From Robiginitomaculum sp. (GTDB lineage Bacteria; Pseudomonadota; Alphaproteobacteria; Caulobacterales; Maricaulaceae), in contig JAESQN010000007.1 of assembly GCA_016765135.1 (NCBI GenBank), positions 1 to 44,754 on the forward strand: a stretch of DNA of 44,754 bases, written 5' to 3'. The translations under genes and the position numbers were made by a program. Below the pieces are notes generated by a model. It was not told where the DNA came from, searched no databases, and saw nothing but the letters and a program-made list of their open reading frames with translations. Each line of letters starts with the position of its first letter. Positions within the stretch are counted from its first letter, which is position 1. Shown in pieces: positions 3,026 through 30,640 of the stretch.

Positions 3026-3346
3026 TTATTTGGATTTTATCAAAACTGTGGTCGCACCTTTAAGAGCGAGCCGGGCCCAGGCGAACATGACAAAAACTAT
3101 AAATGCCGCCGTGACGCCGAACAATATAGCAGAGGCAACACGGTCTACATCCTGCCCCAATATATTCAATATGGTTTGCGCACCTGCAAAGGCCATAATG
3201 GTCGCCAAAAACGCCCAAAACCCGGTCCAGTAAAAACGCACCAATTGGTTTTTCTGGCGAAATTTTATCGCCGGAAGACAAAACAGGGCTGTGAATCCAA
3301 CGGTGGTAAAAAACAAAATAGCGGCTCCAATATATTGTCCCGACAT
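3026..3346 (-). CDS. Small three-helix membrane protein
   Basis: A 106-residue protein with three clear hydrophobic segments (YIGAAILFFTTVGFTALFCL, FYWTGFWAFLATIMAFAGA, and ILFGVTAAFIVFVMFAWARL). A good ribosome binding site, GGGAG, lies six bases before ATG 3346 on the minus strand, which supports it as a real gene. It converges on the PAN protein with only three bases between stop codons. I do not recognise the family. It ends in basic residues (LIKSK), so the tail is probably cytoplasmic. Confidence 0.65.
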   Translation of the reverse strand: MSGQYIGAAILFFTTVGFTALFCLPAIKFRQKNQLVRFYWTGFWAFLATIMAFAGAQTILNILGQDVDRVASAILFGVTAAFIVFVMFAWARLALKGATTVLIKSK

Positions 3347-24110: not shown

Positions 24111-27100
24111 ATGATGGAGTTTAGTGGGTTAGCGCAACAACGTAGAGGTTTATCCGGGGTGTTTGTTCGAAGTTTAGTGCTTTTGCTGGTTTGGTTGGGG
24201 CTTTGTGGGGTGTTGCTTGCACCGCTCGCGCAGGCGCAAGACTTTGCAATTGATGTCGAATATATCAAGCGACAAAATGTTGATGAACGGCTGAAGTCCT
24301 ACGGTGTTGGACTGCTGGGTGATAATATTGATTTGAACACTGGTTCTGTACAATTTGAACATGTGGACATATCCTTGCCAGGCAATTCAGGGCTTGAGGT
24401 TGCGATCCGCAGAACGCGGGGCCAAGGGTTTGTGTTCCCCCATAAGGATGCCACGAGTTATGGCAGTTCAAAATCGTCCAACCCGTTTTCTGACTGGACC
24501 CTTGAAGTGCCTAGAATAGCCATGATTTTTGAGCAAGGTGGTGATGGCAAGGAAATGTGCGATTTTGATAGGTTCGGCGGGAATTTTATAAACAACCCTA
24601 ATCCTCCTAATTATGGTGGCAATGGATTTGAGATTGGCGGAAACGAATCAGTTTGGGTCAATGATTATGATATCTCCAACGGAACCGATTTGATTGTGCC
24701 GGGACGCGGATCACAAAAATTACTGTCCTCGCCGCAAGGTCTAAACTGGCCTGCGGGGACAATCCGGGTTACAAAAAACAATTGGGCGGTTAAATGCGGC
24801 CCGGCTGACAATGGCGCGCAAGGGTTTGTTGCAACGGCCCCTAACGGCGATGTTTACAAATTTGACACCTACCGGACCCGCTATGTGGTCGCGATGCCCA
24901 TAGATGGCAAGACACCTAATCTAAGCGGTTTGGGGGTTAGTGTGTGGAGTACGGTAATTCCCCGGGCTGAAGCAAATTTACTCGCGAGTGAGGTTACGGA
25001 TGTCAATGGAAATTGGGTGCGGTATACTTATAATACCCAAGGCTGGTTAACCCGCATTCATAGTAATGATGGCCGCGATATACAGATAAATTACGACGCG
25101 AACGACTTGATACAAACGATTACCGCACATGGCCGCACATGGAGCTATGCTTACTCATCTCCACAGCCGGGTACTAGCCTGCTTTCATCGGTTACTTTGC
25201 CGGATGGGCGGCAATGGATGATGGATCTCATTAATTATACCGTTACGCCCAATAATTGCATTGAACTATCCGTTCCAGATGCAACATGGAAAATCACCCA
25301 TCCTAGTGGGGTGGAAGGGACATTTATTTTCTCGGAAACGCGGCATTTAAAAGGCAAATCACCAACGGGTAACAACAGATCCAGAAATTGCACCACCGGG
25401 GTCATGACATTTACACCCTATTTTGATTTCATGTCCGTGAAATCCAAAACCCTCTCCGGGCCCGGTTATCCATCTGCCACATGGAATTACACCTATTCGG
25501 GCTATAATGGCGGTGGTCTACCCGTGACAAAATGGGGTCAGGTGGTGGGGCCTTTGGGGCGCAAGACCAAAAGCCATTATCACCGGGCGACGGACTTGGA
25601 GGGGTTGGAGCAACAACAGCAAATCTATGACAGCGGCGGCGCGCTTATGCAAACCACCAATTACACCTATGTTGTAGAAAACCCGGTGGGCACCACCTGG
25701 CTTGAAAATGAAAACCCCGGCAAGCTGACACGCCCGCGCTATCAGAGCGCGGTGGTCACAACCCGAAACGGTGATACATTCACGACCAATAATAGTTACA
25801 ACAACACCCAATCCTCCTCCGCCTACTCCTACGGCAACCCCATATCCACCAGTGTCTCCTCCAACGTCTCCACCACCCCGCGTACTACGGTCACGACCTA
25901 TGAGCATAACACCGCCAAATGGATACTCGGCCTGCCCAAAACCATGACCACCAACGGCCGCAATATGTCGAGCTATGTCTATGATTCCAAAGGCCGCAAA
26001 ACGTCCCAGACCCGCTACGGGGCCGCCCATGCCACCTACAGTTATAACAGCGACGGCACCATACTTTGGGGCCGCGACGCCCTGGGCCGCCAAACCACGC
26101 TCTATGACTGGAAGCGCGGCACGCCCCAGCGTATTAAACGCGCCGACAATGTCTCGACCTACCAATATGTGGACGATAATGGCTGGCTGACCAGCTCGAA
26201 AGACGCGCGCGGCTACACCACCAGCTATGAACGCGACACCATGGGGCGCTTGACCAAATACATCCCACCCAGCCCGTGGACAGCCACGGATATCGCCTAT
26301 GATTTCGGCGCAGACATCAGCCAAACCATCACCAAGGGCAATGCCGAAACCACCATCAATTATGACAACATGTTCCGGCCCATTCTCGTCCAAACGGCGG
26401 ATTTGCTCACCGGCCAGTCCACCTATGTTAAATCCAGCTATAACGGCGCCGGGCAGACCGTGTTTACCTCTTTCCCCTCGGCGAACAGCAACCCAACCGA
26501 CGGCACCAATATGACATATGACGGGCTGGGGCGGATCCTTGACAGTACGGAAAATGTTGCACCTTATGCGCAGACAAAAACCCGGTATTACGGCTCTCAC
26601 CGCACCCGTGTCCACGACCCGGCGGGTAAATTCTCGGATTATTACTATACCGGTTACGACGGCCCGAACGGCAAGACAATACGCGGCCTCTATCAGTCGA
26701 ACGACGGCACATTTACCTATACCTATATGACCCGCAATGACTGGGGCGAGATGACGAATATGACCCAATACGGTAATTCGGGTGGTGTGAGCGTTGTTGA
26801 GTACCGCTATTATTATTATGACGCCCAGCGCCGTTTGTGCCGTTACCGCGAGAACGAAGGCGGCGACACACTCTATAAATATGACGTGGCCGGGCAGATG
26901 ACCTCTTACCAAAAAGGCCTGGCGGCTGGCTCGGCCTGTCCTGCGCCTGCGGGCAGTGACAAGGTCAGCCTGTCTTACGATGTTCTCGGGCGGCCCACCA
27001 CCACCAATTACGCCGACGCGGCCACGCCGGATATCGCCCGCAGTTATGATAACAACGGCAATGTGCTTGGCGTTAATCGTGGCCCAAATGGTGGATCGGG

Positions 27101-28817
27101 CAGCACGGCGGTCAACTGGGCCTATGCTTATGACAGCGCCAACAACCTGACCTCTGAAAACCTGAGCCTTGACGGGCGCATCTTTCCTATGTCTTACGGT
27201 TATGATACGTCCGGGTTTATGGTTTCGCGCAGCTTGCCGTCCGGGCGGAGTTTGGCTATCAGTAATGACGGGCTTGGGCGCTTGGTTGGGGTCAGTAGCG
27301 GCGGCACCAATTATGCATCTGGCACCAGCTATCACGCTTCCGGGGCCATAGCGGGCATGGTTTACGGCAATGGCCAGGTGTTCAGCCAGACTTTAACCGC
27401 GCGGCTCCAGCCTTACCGCCTGCTGTCACAAAAAGGCGCCAGCAAGGCGCTGGATTTGACCTATACTTACGACGTGCGCGGCAAAGTGACCAATATCCTC
27501 AACGGAGCTATGACCGGTGATGACCGGACTTACGCCTATGATGCCCTCGGGCGGATGATCAGCTCAAGCGGGCCTTGGGGCAACGGGTCTTATACCTATG
27601 ACAGCCTTGGTAATATCCGCACAAAGACCGAAGGCAGCCGTTCGCTTGTGATGAATTATGACAGCCGTAACCGGTTGTGGTGGCATACGGATACGGGCGG
27701 GCCGCTGCGGGTATTTTCCTATGATAACCGGGGCAATGTCACGGGGATTACCGGGCAGTCATTTTTATATGACAAATCCAACCAGCCGGTACAGATCTCC
27801 GGCATTGCGGGCGGACACTATAAATATGACGGTAATAAACGCCGGGTGAAAAGTATTGTAGACGGTAAGACGATTTACAATGTTTACGACGCGTCGGGCA
27901 CGTTGGTGCACATCGATAAAGTCACAGACAACAAAAAGATCGATTACATCGGCAAATTCGTCCGCATAGAAAACAACGTCCCAACCTACCTGCACATGGA
28001 CCATCTAGGCTCCGCCCAAACTGGGAGCAGTGTGAACGGCACAGTAGCCTGGCGAGAACAATACACCCCGTTCGGCGAAACCCTAACCAACCCCCTAAGC
28101 AACGCGGACCAGGCCGGGTACACAGGGCATATTAAGGATTCCGCCACGGGTTTGAACTATATGCAAGCAAGGTACTATGATCCGCTGATCGGGAGGTTCC
28201 TAAGCATAGACCCGATAGGCTTCAGCCCGGAAATGCCGTTCATGTTTAATCGGTATACTTATGTCAACAATGATCCGCTGAATAATTGGGATCCGTTTGG
28301 AGAGCAGGTTGAAGAATTAGAAAAGGGTAAAGAGTTTTCATTTACCGCTAAAATCCAAAATGAGAGTAGTAAAGATTTATCTGATGAGCAACTACAGTCT
28401 ATGGGGGATGAAATAGGCACGGTGATTGATGGTGCTTTTTCAGGGAGTAAAGGGATATTTCGCGGAGATGTTACTATGACGAGTGATATAAGTGGTGGTG
28501 AAGCAGGGGAAGGTGAGACTACTATTTCGATAGTAGATGAAATTATAGGTTCTGATGGCAAAGCTATTCCGAACGTTTTAGGAGCTTTTGAAGGTGACTT
28601 CGGCGAAGGCGGAAATATTAAGATTACCACTTTTGCAATTGAGAAGGGTATGGTAGGGAAAACAGGCGGTCATGAGTTTGGTCATTCCTTTGGCAATTTG
28701 AAGCATCCAAGGGGAACGTCCTTTACTTTAATGGATCAAAGTAATCGTTCTAATTTAACGCCTCTACGACCTGATCAACGTCGACGAGCTATCAGGAGTT
28801 TTCAGAAAAATGATTAA
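24111..28817 (+). CDS. Secreted RHS/YD-repeat toxin with metzincin-like C-terminal domain
   Basis: A 1568-residue polymorphic toxin. An N-terminal signal peptide (VLLLVWLGLCGVLLAPLAQAQ) is followed by a beta-rich region and many YD repeats (YDALGR, YTYDSLGN, YDNRGN) between about residues 300 and 1310. The conserved RHS core end follows (GLNYMQARYYDPLIGRFLS, then NRYTYVNNDPLN and WDPFG at about 1395). The last 170 residues are AT-rich in DNA and unlike the core. They hold HEFGHSFGNLKH (His1521, Glu1522, His1525, Gly1528, His1532), an exact HExxHxxGxxH zinc motif, and LMD with Met1541 as a possible Met-turn. No PAAR or T6SS part is visible. ATG 24111 has GGAG seven bases upstream. The RHS call is certain; protease activity is inferred from the motif. 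Confidence 0.93.
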   Translation: MMEFSGLAQQRRGLSGVFVRSLVLLLVWLGLCGVLLAPLAQAQDFAIDVEYIKRQNVDERLKSYGVGLLGDNIDLNTGSVQFEHVDISLPGNSGLEVAIRRTRGQGFVFPHKDATSYGSSKSSNPFSDWTLEVPRIAMIFEQGGDGKEMCDFDRFGGNFINNPNPPNYGGNGFEIGGNESVWVNDYDISNGTDLIVPGRGSQKLLSSPQGLNWPAGTIRVTKNNWAVKCGPADNGAQGFVATAPNGDVYKFDTYRTRYVVAMPIDGKTPNLSGLGVSVWSTVIPRAEANLLASEVTDVNGNWVRYTYNTQGWLTRIHSNDGRDIQINYDANDLIQTITAHGRTWSYAYSSPQPGTSLLSSVTLPDGRQWMMDLINYTVTPNNCIELSVPDATWKITHPSGVEGTFIFSETRHLKGKSPTGNNRSRNCTTGVMTFTPYFDFMSVKSKTLSGPGYPSATWNYTYSGYNGGGLPVTKWGQVVGPLGRKTKSHYHRATDLEGLEQQQQIYDSGGALMQTTNYTYVVENPVGTTWLENENPGKLTRPRYQSAVVTTRNGDTFTTNNSYNNTQSSSAYSYGNPISTSVSSNVSTTPRTTVTTYEHNTAKWILGLPKTMTTNGRNMSSYVYDSKGRKTSQTRYGAAHATYSYNSDGTILWGRDALGRQTTLYDWKRGTPQRIKRADNVSTYQYVDDNGWLTSSKDARGYTTSYERDTMGRLTKYIPPSPWTATDIAYDFGADISQTITKGNAETTINYDNMFRPILVQTADLLTGQSTYVKSSYNGAGQTVFTSFPSANSNPTDGTNMTYDGLGRILDSTENVAPYAQTKTRYYGSHRTRVHDPAGKFSDYYYTGYDGPNGKTIRGLYQSNDGTFTYTYMTRNDWGEMTNMTQYGNSGGVSVVEYRYYYYDAQRRLCRYRENEGGDTLYKYDVAGQMTSYQKGLAAGSACPAPAGSDKVSLSYDVLGRPTTTNYADAATPDIARSYDNNGNVLGVNRGPNGGSGSTAVNWAYAYDSANNLTSENLSLDGRIFPMSYGYDTSGFMVSRSLPSGRSLAISNDGLGRLVGVSSGGTNYASGTSYHASGAIAGMVYGNGQVFSQTLTARLQPYRLLSQKGASKALDLTYTYDVRGKVTNILNGAMTGDDRTYAYDALGRMISSSGPWGNGSYTYDSLGNIRTKTEGSRSLVMNYDSRNRLWWHTDTGGPLRVFSYDNRGNVTGITGQSFLYDKSNQPVQISGIAGGHYKYDGNKRRVKSIVDGKTIYNVYDASGTLVHIDKVTDNKKIDYIGKFVRIENNVPTYLHMDHLGSAQTGSSVNGTVAWREQYTPFGETLTNPLSNADQAGYTGHIKDSATGLNYMQARYYDPLIGRFLSIDPIGFSPEMPFMFNRYTYVNNDPLNNWDPFGEQVEELEKGKEFSFTAKIQNESSKDLSDEQLQSMGDEIGTVIDGAFSGSKGIFRGDVTMTSDISGGEAGEGETTISIVDEIIGSDGKAIPNVLGAFEGDFGEGGNIKITTFAIEKGMVGKTGGHEFGHSFGNLKHPRGTSFTLMDQSNRSNLTPLRPDQRRRAIRSFQKND

Positions 28818-29184
28818 ACCAGCCATGTTTTTAGGCCTTTTCTTGAGTGCTCTTTCATTAAATGGATGTGAATTTTCAACTCAAGCTACTCCGCAAAAAT
28901 GTGACTTCAAATTTACTGTTTTGGGGTATGATTCTCAACGTATTGTAGTCAATGATCGCTCAGAAATTATTTATGATGCTATCAGTGCAATACCAGAGAA
29001 AGCAACAGAAATTAGTGCTTTCTCGAATTTTACTATCGACATTCCAACAAAACTCTTTTTTGTTGTGGGAGAAAAGTACAGATATACTCTGAAAGTTCCA
29101 GATTGTACGAAGCTCGGTATAGTATTGAGTAAGCGTGACCGTGAAGCCTACCTTGTTCACTTGGATAATTACTTCTTTGAATGA
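28810..29184 (+). CDS. Candidate immunity lipoprotein for the RHS metzincin toxin
   Basis: A 124-residue predicted lipoprotein: signal peptide MIKPAMFLGLFLSALSLNGC with a good lipobox (LNGC), then an acidic, beta-rich domain of unknown family with two more cysteines (KCDF and PDCTKLG). It overlaps the last eight bases of the RHS gene and shares the AT-rich composition of the toxin tail, the usual position and signature of an immunity gene. A periplasmic lipoprotein would suit a toxin that itself carries a Sec signal. The function is inferred from position only. Confidence 0.7.
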   Translation: MIKPAMFLGLFLSALSLNGCEFSTQATPQKCDFKFTVLGYDSQRIVVNDRSEIIYDAISAIPEKATEISAFSNFTIDIPTKLFFVVGEKYRYTLKVPDCTKLGIVLSKRDREAYLVHLDNYFFE

Positions 29185-29197
29185 GGCTAAAGCGCCT

Positions 29198-29226
29198 GGA
29201 CTGACATCAGTCCATATCGGTTTTTT
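29198..29226 (+). terminator. Likely terminator after toxin/immunity pair
   Basis: GGACTGA-CA-TCAGTCC (29198-29213) is a perfect 7-base stem, followed seven bases later by TTTTTT. The gap between stem and T tract makes it a moderate rather than strong intrinsic terminator, but the position 14 bases after the immunity stop is right. Confidence 0.5.
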
Positions 29227-29300
29227 CCTGTTCCGTAAGTTTCGAGGTTGAAAAGAAGCGAATTTGGAGTGTAGAGGATGTTTCGCAAGATAAAGCGAAA

Positions 29301-29415
29301 CGCCATTCTGGCCCATCTCGCGGCTAAGCCTTTGTTTTTCACCCCAAGGGCATTTCCTCGCTTCGCTCAGGGCACGATTGAAATTAGAGTCCAGGGTGGG
29401 CCACGCGAAATGGCG
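29301..29415. repeat. Imperfect inverted repeat between RHS locus and ICE remnant
   Basis: cgccattctggccca (29301-29315) is matched in reverse complement by tgggccacgcgaaatggcg (29397-29415) with a 4-base insertion. Between them lies cctcgcttcgctcagggcac, resembling REP-like ends. This non-coding 280-base stretch (29185-29464) has no gene; the repeat may be the relic of a small mobile element. Confidence 0.35.
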
Positions 29416-29464
29416 ATTTTTAGTCCGAAATCTCCCTCATTTTAGCGGCTAAGAAAACGTCCCA

Positions 29465-29848
29465 ATGTCCCGCTATGTCCCTCTACTGCCTAATTTACTC
29501 AGATTTATCTTTCCCAATGGGAACTCAATCCAGCTTGACAACCTGCCTGCCGTAGACGGCCAGGGCTTTGCAGGCCTGAAAGACAAGGTAGATCGCCATA
29601 CTTGGCAATTCATGAAAGGCGCGGTGTTATCGTCGCTATTGAGTGTCGCTTCAGAACTCTCATCAGATGATGAAGGCCGTCTAGCCCGCGCTCTGCAAAA
29701 CGCAGGGCAGGATACAGCCAATATCGCAGGTCAACGGATTATCGAACGTAGCCTAAATATCCAGCCAACAATAAGCGTCCGTCCCGGCTGGCGGTTCTCA
29801 ATCATCGTCAGCAAGGATTTAACCCTCAAACCATATGGAGAAAAATAG
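29465..29848 (+). pseudogene. trbI: TrbI (VirB10-like) conjugal transfer protein, C-terminal fragment
   Basis: The frame encodes about 120 residues matching the end of TrbI, the channel scaffold of conjugative type IV secretion. The matches are FIFPNGNSIQLDNLPAVDGQGFAGLKDKVD, HTWQFMKGAVLSSLLSVASEL and the terminal LNIQPTISVRPGWRFSIIVSKDLTLKPY. Intact TrbI is some 400 residues; the membrane helix and most of the beta-barrel are missing, and an in-frame stop lies at 29450. Homology begins about ten residues after the ATG, so the start is fortuitous. The 3' end runs into the DUF2274 remnant. Confidence 0.85.
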
Positions 29849-29900
29849 TGACCACGGGTTTAAGAAAGCCAAGCGCGAGCTTGCTTTAACTGTTTCATAA
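29847..29900 (+). pseudogene. DUF2274 tail fused behind trbI
   Basis: In a frame shifted relative to trbI, the sequence reads SDHGFKKAKRELALTVS then stop. This resembles the C-terminus of the small DUF2274 protein that normally follows trbI in these elements (ends such as DRGFxKAR). Its first 60 or so residues are missing, so a deletion seems to have joined the end of trbI to the end of the next gene. The match is short and rests on memory of the family. Confidence 0.5.
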
Positions 29901-29924
29901 ACCCCAACATACGGAGAAATAACT

Positions 29925-30305
29925 ATGCCTACAATTGGAACATTCAAACAAACAAAAACCAGCTATGAAGGCACAATCGCCACCCTAAGCATGGCCCACA
30001 AAGTCAAATTCGTCACCAACAAAAACAAAAAGAATGAAGATAGCCCTGACTTTTTCATCAAATCAGGCCGCAGCGACTTCGGCGTAGCCTGGAAAGAAAC
30101 CAAAGATGGCGGTCTCTTTCTTTTGAACGACCAATCAAACCTAGTCGCCTTAGCGCTACTCTTGCTAGGTTTACTTGTTCCGTCGATATTTTTACGCCGT
30201 GGACGGCAGCCGCATGGGTCAGAACGGTATGAATGTAGGAGATATCGGCGGCGAGTGTTGCCGGGCCTGCGCCTTCTTTCGCGCGCATACGCCCGAATTC
30301 GATAA
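29925..30305 (+). pseudogene. DUF736 protein fused to antisense integrase sequence
   Basis: The first 62 residues (TIGTFKQTKTSYEGTIATL ... KVKFVTNKNKKNEDSPDFFI ... DFGVAWKET) are typical of DUF736, a small protein of conjugative elements of unknown function, normally about 100 residues. After WKETKDGG (base 30110) the frame continues only because it runs antisense through the integrase fragment, giving an unrelated Arg-rich tail. A ribosome binding site (GGAG) precedes the ATG, so the chimeric protein could still be made. Confidence 0.8.
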
Positions 30306-30640
30306 TACTAGCTCGCGTTAAGTGAGGGGTTTTTACTTGCCCCAGATGTTTATTGAGAGTGCGAAGTGCAAAATCTTTGGAGCGGCCTAAAGGCTTGTTT
30401 ACCTCGACCATATCAGCGATGTGTAGTTCGATCAGTTGTCCGAATGTATTGAACCCAATAATTCTTGGAGAAATTAATTTTTGGAGCAATTATACCTCGT
30501 CCTTGATCGGAACGGCGGTCAGCTTCAAACAACCAAGACAACGCATCAGATTTATTTGAAAAGGTCTTTGACGCGTACTGTCCCTTACGTCTAATCTGGA
30601 CGCGGTAATTACCTGATTTGAGTTTTACTATTGTTGCCAT
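30109..30640 (-). pseudogene. int: Tyrosine integrase, frameshifted and lacking the catalytic domain
   Basis: The N-terminus MATIVKLKSGNYRVQIRRKGQYASKTFSNKSDALSWLFE is a phage-type integrase arm-binding domain. The frame fails near 30440-30470 and resumes one frame over as FGQLIELHIADMVEVNKPLGRSKDFALRTLNKHLG ... ISYIHTVLTHAAAVHG ... LRRLGLIGRSKERDR, the core-binding domain. It then stops matching at 30109, where DUF736 sequence begins on the other strand. The Arg-His-Arg-Tyr catalytic half is absent, so the protein is dead. The gene start lies 105 bases from the dusA start, pointing the other way. Confidence 0.85.

Follow-up and report, generated by a model that had tools for sequence, protein, structure and literature searches.

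The window, a stretch of 44,754 nucleotides of a contig from Robiginitomaculum sp. (JAESQN010000007.1), carries on its forward strand a long gene for an RHS protein, followed by a small overlapping gene and a hairpin (Table 1). The open reading frame encoding the RHS protein ends with a stop at 28817. Its start is TTG 24090 according to the program-made listing of open reading frames; the ATG at 24111 is preceded by GGAG and fits the residue numbering of the original prediction (His1521, His1532 and Met1541). By eye, the N-terminus runs from two arginines through a hydrophobic stretch to A-Q-A-Q, and is probably a Sec signal. RHS repeats were recovered with Pfam (RHS_repeat, E 2.4e-23) and the RHS-associated core with NCBIfam (Rhs_assc_core TIGR03696, E 8.4e-22), while a Pfam search of the protein found neither a PAAR nor a VgrG domain. 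Antisense to the core runs a 605-aa open frame (25518-27335), which is probably a shadow of the core's composition.

Table 1. Features of the RHS locus, in positions of the window
Feature	Position	Strand	Remark
Probable Sec signal peptide of the RHS protein	24111..24239	+	ends in LAPLAQAQ; by eye
RHS/YD-repeat shell and RHS-associated core	24240..28298	+	C-terminal end WDPF(G)
Variable C-terminal domain (tail), 172 aa, predicted zincin-type metallopeptidase toxin	28299..28817	+	follows DPF
HEFGHSFGNLKH = HExxHxxGxxxH, candidate zinc site (His, His, His) and general base Glu	28671..28706	+	pattern test
LMD, candidate Met-turn	28728..28736	+	Met (28731-28733) nine residues past the third His
Lipoprotein-like protein, 124 aa, candidate immunity protein	28810..29184	+	N-terminal hydrophobic stretch, SLNGC
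Terminator-like hairpin	29197..29214	+	just 3' of the candidate immunity gene

The two genes overlap by 8 nt: the downstream gene begins with an ATG inside the final codons of its neighbour, and an AGGAG (28794-28798) is located 11 nt 5' of this ATG. In the putative lipobox SLNGC, the Asn at position -2 is off the usual consensus. The product of the downstream gene gave no significant family match in Pfam, NCBIfam, PHROG or PADLOC (best PHROG E 0.35). Homologues were detected in two of the 137 genomes of the family, namely the own genome and G351, and in none of the plasmids (E<=10) or viral contigs searched. The core has a G+C content of 52.6%, compared with 40.7% for the tail, 36.0% for the downstream gene and 50.9% for the window as a whole. 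Tail and downstream gene are A+T-rich relative to the core and resemble a cassette in this respect. Two terminator-like sites were found within 28600-29500, versus 0.9 expected from shuffled sequences, which is a weak excess.

Further downstream, the region 29465-30305 contains pieces of conjugation genes, among them a 127-aa ORF that corresponds to the C-terminal part of TrbI (Pfam 7.7e-29; found with NCBIfam as well) and another that matches DUF736 (Pfam, 5.7e-14); the RHS locus may lie in the remains of a mobile element. On the minus strand, two overlapping ORFs (30058-30640) resemble, by eye, fragments of a disrupted integrase and matched nothing in Pfam or NCBIfam.

Tail swapping among related RHS loci and a candidate export route

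We searched 14 genomes of the genus with the RHS core and obtained matches at E<=1e-5 in eight of them, the own genome included; genome G000 yielded one such match. The related RHS loci numbered 18 (L030-L047) and came from seven other genomes, an identical copy (L029) being excluded. All 18 matched the last 420 residues of the core, versus none that matched the tail at E<=1e-3. When core and tail were joined in one query and composition adjustment was turned off, the alignment ended at residue 421-429 in 13 of the 18 loci, DPFG occupying residues 418-421. Four further alignments reached residues 472-543 under this setting and ended at 422-446 once the adjustment was turned on, while that of L032 stopped at 261. 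Searched alone against the related loci, the tail gave a best E of 6.8 (1.7 with composition adjustment off). That is, related loci keep the core and carry other tails.

A Pfam scan of nine of these tails gave three matches above the cut-off, Ntox10 (L030), Ribonuclease PF00545 (L034) and DUF6973 (L043). Tox-REase-7 in the L038 tail fell just under it, L047 gave a weak match to DUF5643, and the tails of L031, L036, L042 and L046 had no Pfam match. The text consulted of PMC3482391 lists Ntox10 among predicted RNases, and two further named tail domains of the genus are nuclease families by name. Cytoplasmic targets are therefore common in the genus, and envelope action at our locus has the lipoprotein-like partner as its single pointer. 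HExxH was absent from all 14 other tails that were read, L045 being truncated by the end of its locus. Small ORFs lie behind most of these tails, and in two of the 14 cases, the second tail of L043 and that of L046, the gene behind looked lipoprotein-like by eye. With DUF6973 in L043 and no Pfam match in L046, a lipoprotein partner may be a recurrent theme in the genus. A row of several RHS-core matches on contig 1 of genome G321 (about 48509-57889) could be an array of spare tails.

We assign the protein to the RHS polymorphic toxins with high confidence, and the locus shows a family of such toxins in a Robiginitomaculum-like lineage. As to delivery, three secretins were detected in the own genome, one of which is GspD (TIGR02517, 480 bits versus a cut-off of 351). 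The T6SS sheath protein VipB had no match in the own genome, with a positive E. coli control. Since no T6SS sheath was matched, export through a T2SS is the obvious candidate route; judged from the secretin GspD, we infer that T2SS passage after Sec export is the likeliest one.

The HExxH motif of the tail

The tail had originally been described as carrying an exact HExxHxxGxxH. A pattern test was negative for this signature and positive for HExxHxxGxxxH, which is one residue longer and sets the first and third His 11 instead of 10 positions apart. The predicted LMD nine residues after the last motif His was borne out. The tail has three His in total, and all of them are within the motif, which is located at the toxic-domain position of RHS proteins. 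When the residues of the tail were shuffled 200,000 times, 635 shuffles contained HExxH, 86 contained HExxHxxG, and two contained HExxHxxG followed by a His after two or three further residues, so that a chance origin of the motif is unlikely. Inspection of the translation revealed no Glu C-terminal of HExxH, and the sequence therefore excludes a third ligand of the gluzincin type, as in VgrG2b. As the tail has no other His to offer, the final one of the motif is the natural candidate for the third zinc ligand. The term HExxHxxGxxxH did not occur in the literature searched. Core, tail swapping and motif together support the prediction of an RHS polymorphic toxin with a zinc-peptidase-like tail, and from its sequence we consider the tail to be, with good probability, a zinc peptidase.

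Homologues of the tail were sought widely. Pfam, NCBIfam, PHROG and PADLOC gave no match, a PDB sequence search gave nothing significant (no hit better than E 0.8), and no confident match to a non-protease family was seen. There were no homologues in viral contigs, nor in plasmids and phages at E<=1. Among genome contigs a single locus was found, L002 (NVVO01000027.1, Robiginitomaculum sp. isolate NORP61), which seems to belong to G351, a genome of the same genus. It is identical to window positions 27009-30367 at 3338 of 3338 non-N positions (of 3359), while its flanking matches to the window are only about 76-85% identical, which points to a very recent transfer or an assembly mis-join. L002 was not accepted as an independent second copy that could attest conservation of the motif.

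Searches of broader taxonomic scope gave similar outcomes. In 398 genomes of the order, 18 were matched at E<=0.01, including the own genome and G351 with the same copy. We rejected the hits in the 16 others (19 loci, L004-L022), none of which contained HExxHxxGx(2,3)H/D in any frame; HExxH occurred in L014 only, at its very edge, and many of these loci look flagellin-like. Five of 398 genomes of the phylum were matched, the own genome among them, and the three new loci were discarded as lacking the motif. With the last 80 residues of the tail as query, 29 of 385 genomes of the class were matched at E<=0.1, again including the own genome. HExxHxxGx(2,3)H/D was present in none of the 29 loci L081-L109, which were likewise set aside, and HExxH occurred somewhere in 11 of them. 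A 67-residue tail query against plasmids (E<=10) returned 12 weak records, the best at E 0.3. Three plasmid records were fetched, and two of them were dismissed for want of HExxH. The Rhizobium plasmid locus L027 encodes a serralysin-like peptidase with HEFGHQFGLNHP, and was rejected as well, its likeness being taken as one of motif only. An independent tail homologue showing conservation of the motif was found in none of the genomes, plasmids, phages and viral contigs searched.

Comparison with Peptidase_M10 domains

For comparison with metzincins we used 30 Peptidase_M10 (PF00413) loci, taken from 35 listed places that were spread over 25 of the 100 phylum genomes. The gap between the Gly and the first His behind it is two residues in 27 of the 30 loci and three in none, versus three in the tail. 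L049 and L069 have no His at that position, and a doubled His reduces the gap of L057 to a reading of one. The His-to-Met value, taken as the distance to the first xM past the motif and hence not always that of the true Met-turn, was obtained for 26 of the 30 loci: it is 8 in four, 6 in one, 11-13 in four and 20-32 in 17. The four loci with a value of 8 are matrixin-like (L048, L050, L051 and L052), and the tail has 9. The original prediction had held the His-to-Met spacing to be unusually short for metzincins; in view of the four matrixin-like domains, a Met at this distance is nothing unusual for a matrixin, and it is the His spacing that is odd, which is the reverse of that remark.

We then compared the tail with these sequences by hhalign, using shuffles of the tail that retained the 12-residue motif alone as a reference. 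Against the four matrixin-like sequences, 48 of 100 such shuffles reached the observed score. Against a set of 22 M10 sequences, from which the divergent L057, L061, L064, L070 and L072 had been dropped by hand and L049, L056 and L069 left out, 9 of 100 did. As motif-keeping shuffles match the observed score, the similarity to the M10 profile is explained by the 12-residue motif, and we do not take metzincin identity as proven by profile. Pfam gave no Peptidase_M10 match for the tail at E<=5, and AlphaFold2 run on the single tail sequence reached a mean pLDDT of 37.3 and a pTM of 0.25, too low to place the three His.

In sum, the tail resembles matrixin-like metzincins in having HExxHxxG, a third His and, shortly after it, a Met, but differs from them in the gap between Gly and third His (three versus two residues), and no likeness beyond the motif was shown. 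It departs by the same token from the metzincin clan signature, HExxHxxGxxH/D. If the tail is active, a metzincin-type zinc loop would tolerate one extra residue.

Proposed mode of action and known systems

In the model that explains the locus best, the Sec signal would export the RHS protein, whose RHS shell would enclose and then release the 172-aa C-terminal domain. This domain would fold as a small zincin peptidase, in which the three His of HExxHxxGxxxH coordinate zinc and the Glu acts as general base, and would cut cell-envelope proteins of competing bacteria, resulting in their killing or inhibition. The lipoprotein encoded at 28810-29184 would reside on the periplasmic side, where it would protect the producer and its kin by binding and blocking the peptidase. 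Action in the periplasm or on surface proteins had been suggested originally, and the overlapping lipoprotein-like gene, which has a published parallel in peptidases of the VgrG2b type with exported immunity proteins, makes an envelope site of action more likely. On balance we lean slightly towards the full model of an exported RHS toxin with an envelope-acting zincin tail and lipoprotein immunity. Whether the tail also stands for a new zincin family, defined as three-His peptidases whose loop from the helix Gly to the third His is one residue longer and which serve as envelope toxins of T2SS-exported RHS proteins and are neutralised by a lipoprotein, is a tentative proposal that we are inclined to doubt. 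Protease tails are a minority among RHS toxins, and the targets of the envelope-acting ones are little known.

The same observations can be read differently. The extra residue in the Gly-to-His gap (three in place of two), a similarity to M10 profiles that motif-keeping shuffles equal, the lack of a peptidase-family profile match in Pfam or NCBIfam and the nuclease families among related tails would all suit a motif that is incidental or degenerate, in a tail that is a different orphan toxin, for example a membrane-active one or a nuclease. However, HExxHxxG followed by His is very rare by chance (2/200,000), and all three His of the tail fall inside the motif; we regard such an orphan toxin as unlikely. 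The idea that the tail serves, as a processing peptidase, to release or mature the RHS protein, and is not itself the toxin, fares far worse. Releasing metallopeptidases are described for other systems, such as the PVC-metallopeptidase in the text consulted of PMC3482391, but our tail is the last domain of the protein, lies at its very C-terminal end where toxins are swapped, and comes with an overlapping partner gene of its own, which leaves this reading highly improbable.

A further possibility is that the tail is indeed a zinc peptidase, but one directed against eukaryotic grazers or extracellular proteins, and that the gene behind it has nothing to do with immunity. A protein exported by a T2SS would end up in the medium, some peptidase effectors, such as Tpe2, have been predicted to target eukaryotes and to come without immunity proteins (PMC9846239, in the part consulted), and many PVC toxins are described without immunity genes (PMC3482391, likewise in part). 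That the partner gene overlaps the toxin gene, is A+T-rich and lipoprotein-like and is followed by a terminator-like hairpin argues against this reading, as do the toxin-named families among related tails and the small ORFs behind most tails read. We therefore think an anti-grazer or extracellular peptidase distinctly unlikely and prefer the envelope-acting toxin with its candidate lipoprotein immunity.

A protease as RHS tail is already known, while the sequence type of this tail and its loop are unmatched in the libraries searched. Tox-MPTase1-5 are zincin toxin domains on RHS polymorphic toxins, with alphaproteobacteria listed for two of the five (both from the consulted part of PMC3482391), and like the tail they are small HExxH domains associated with RHS repeats. 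The Tox-MPTase table of that paper gives HExxH (HEELH for one) and a few other residues, with no third His. The tail differs from them in having no Pfam-A match at E<=5, Tox-MPTase4 (PF15640) having been confirmed among the Pfam-A models. A search with PF15640 matched 0 of 14 genomes of the genus and 0 of 14 controls, counts from which absence is not provable.

As far as the consulted parts of the respective papers go, the C-terminal metallopeptidase of VgrG2b shows a periplasmic toxicity that two His mutations in its HExxH abolish, and its immunity protein requires its own signal peptide (PMC6899460). The peptidase SARI_02727 has a Sec/SPII lipoprotein as immunity protein, and a protein bearing the name Type VI Rhs protein shares 95.24% identity with the S. 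arizonae peptidase (PMC12992299, in part); the text seen of PMC9846239 cites an Rhs-MPTase from E. coli. With VgrG2b/Tpe1 effectors our locus shares a zinc-peptidase motif and an adjoining gene with a periplasmic or lipoprotein signal, which encodes immunity there and a candidate for it here. In contrast, according to the same partial sources (PMC6899460, PMC12992299), these effectors are HExxH+E gluzincins delivered by a T6SS, whereas the tail lacks a Glu after HExxH and the own genome a VipB match. On the best reading the tail may be likened in action to VgrG2b or the Tox-MPTases, and the tests made place it in neither group. Among systems worked out so far, VgrG2b and its relatives offer the closest parallels, with their periplasmic toxicity, dependence on HExxH and exported or lipoprotein immunity.
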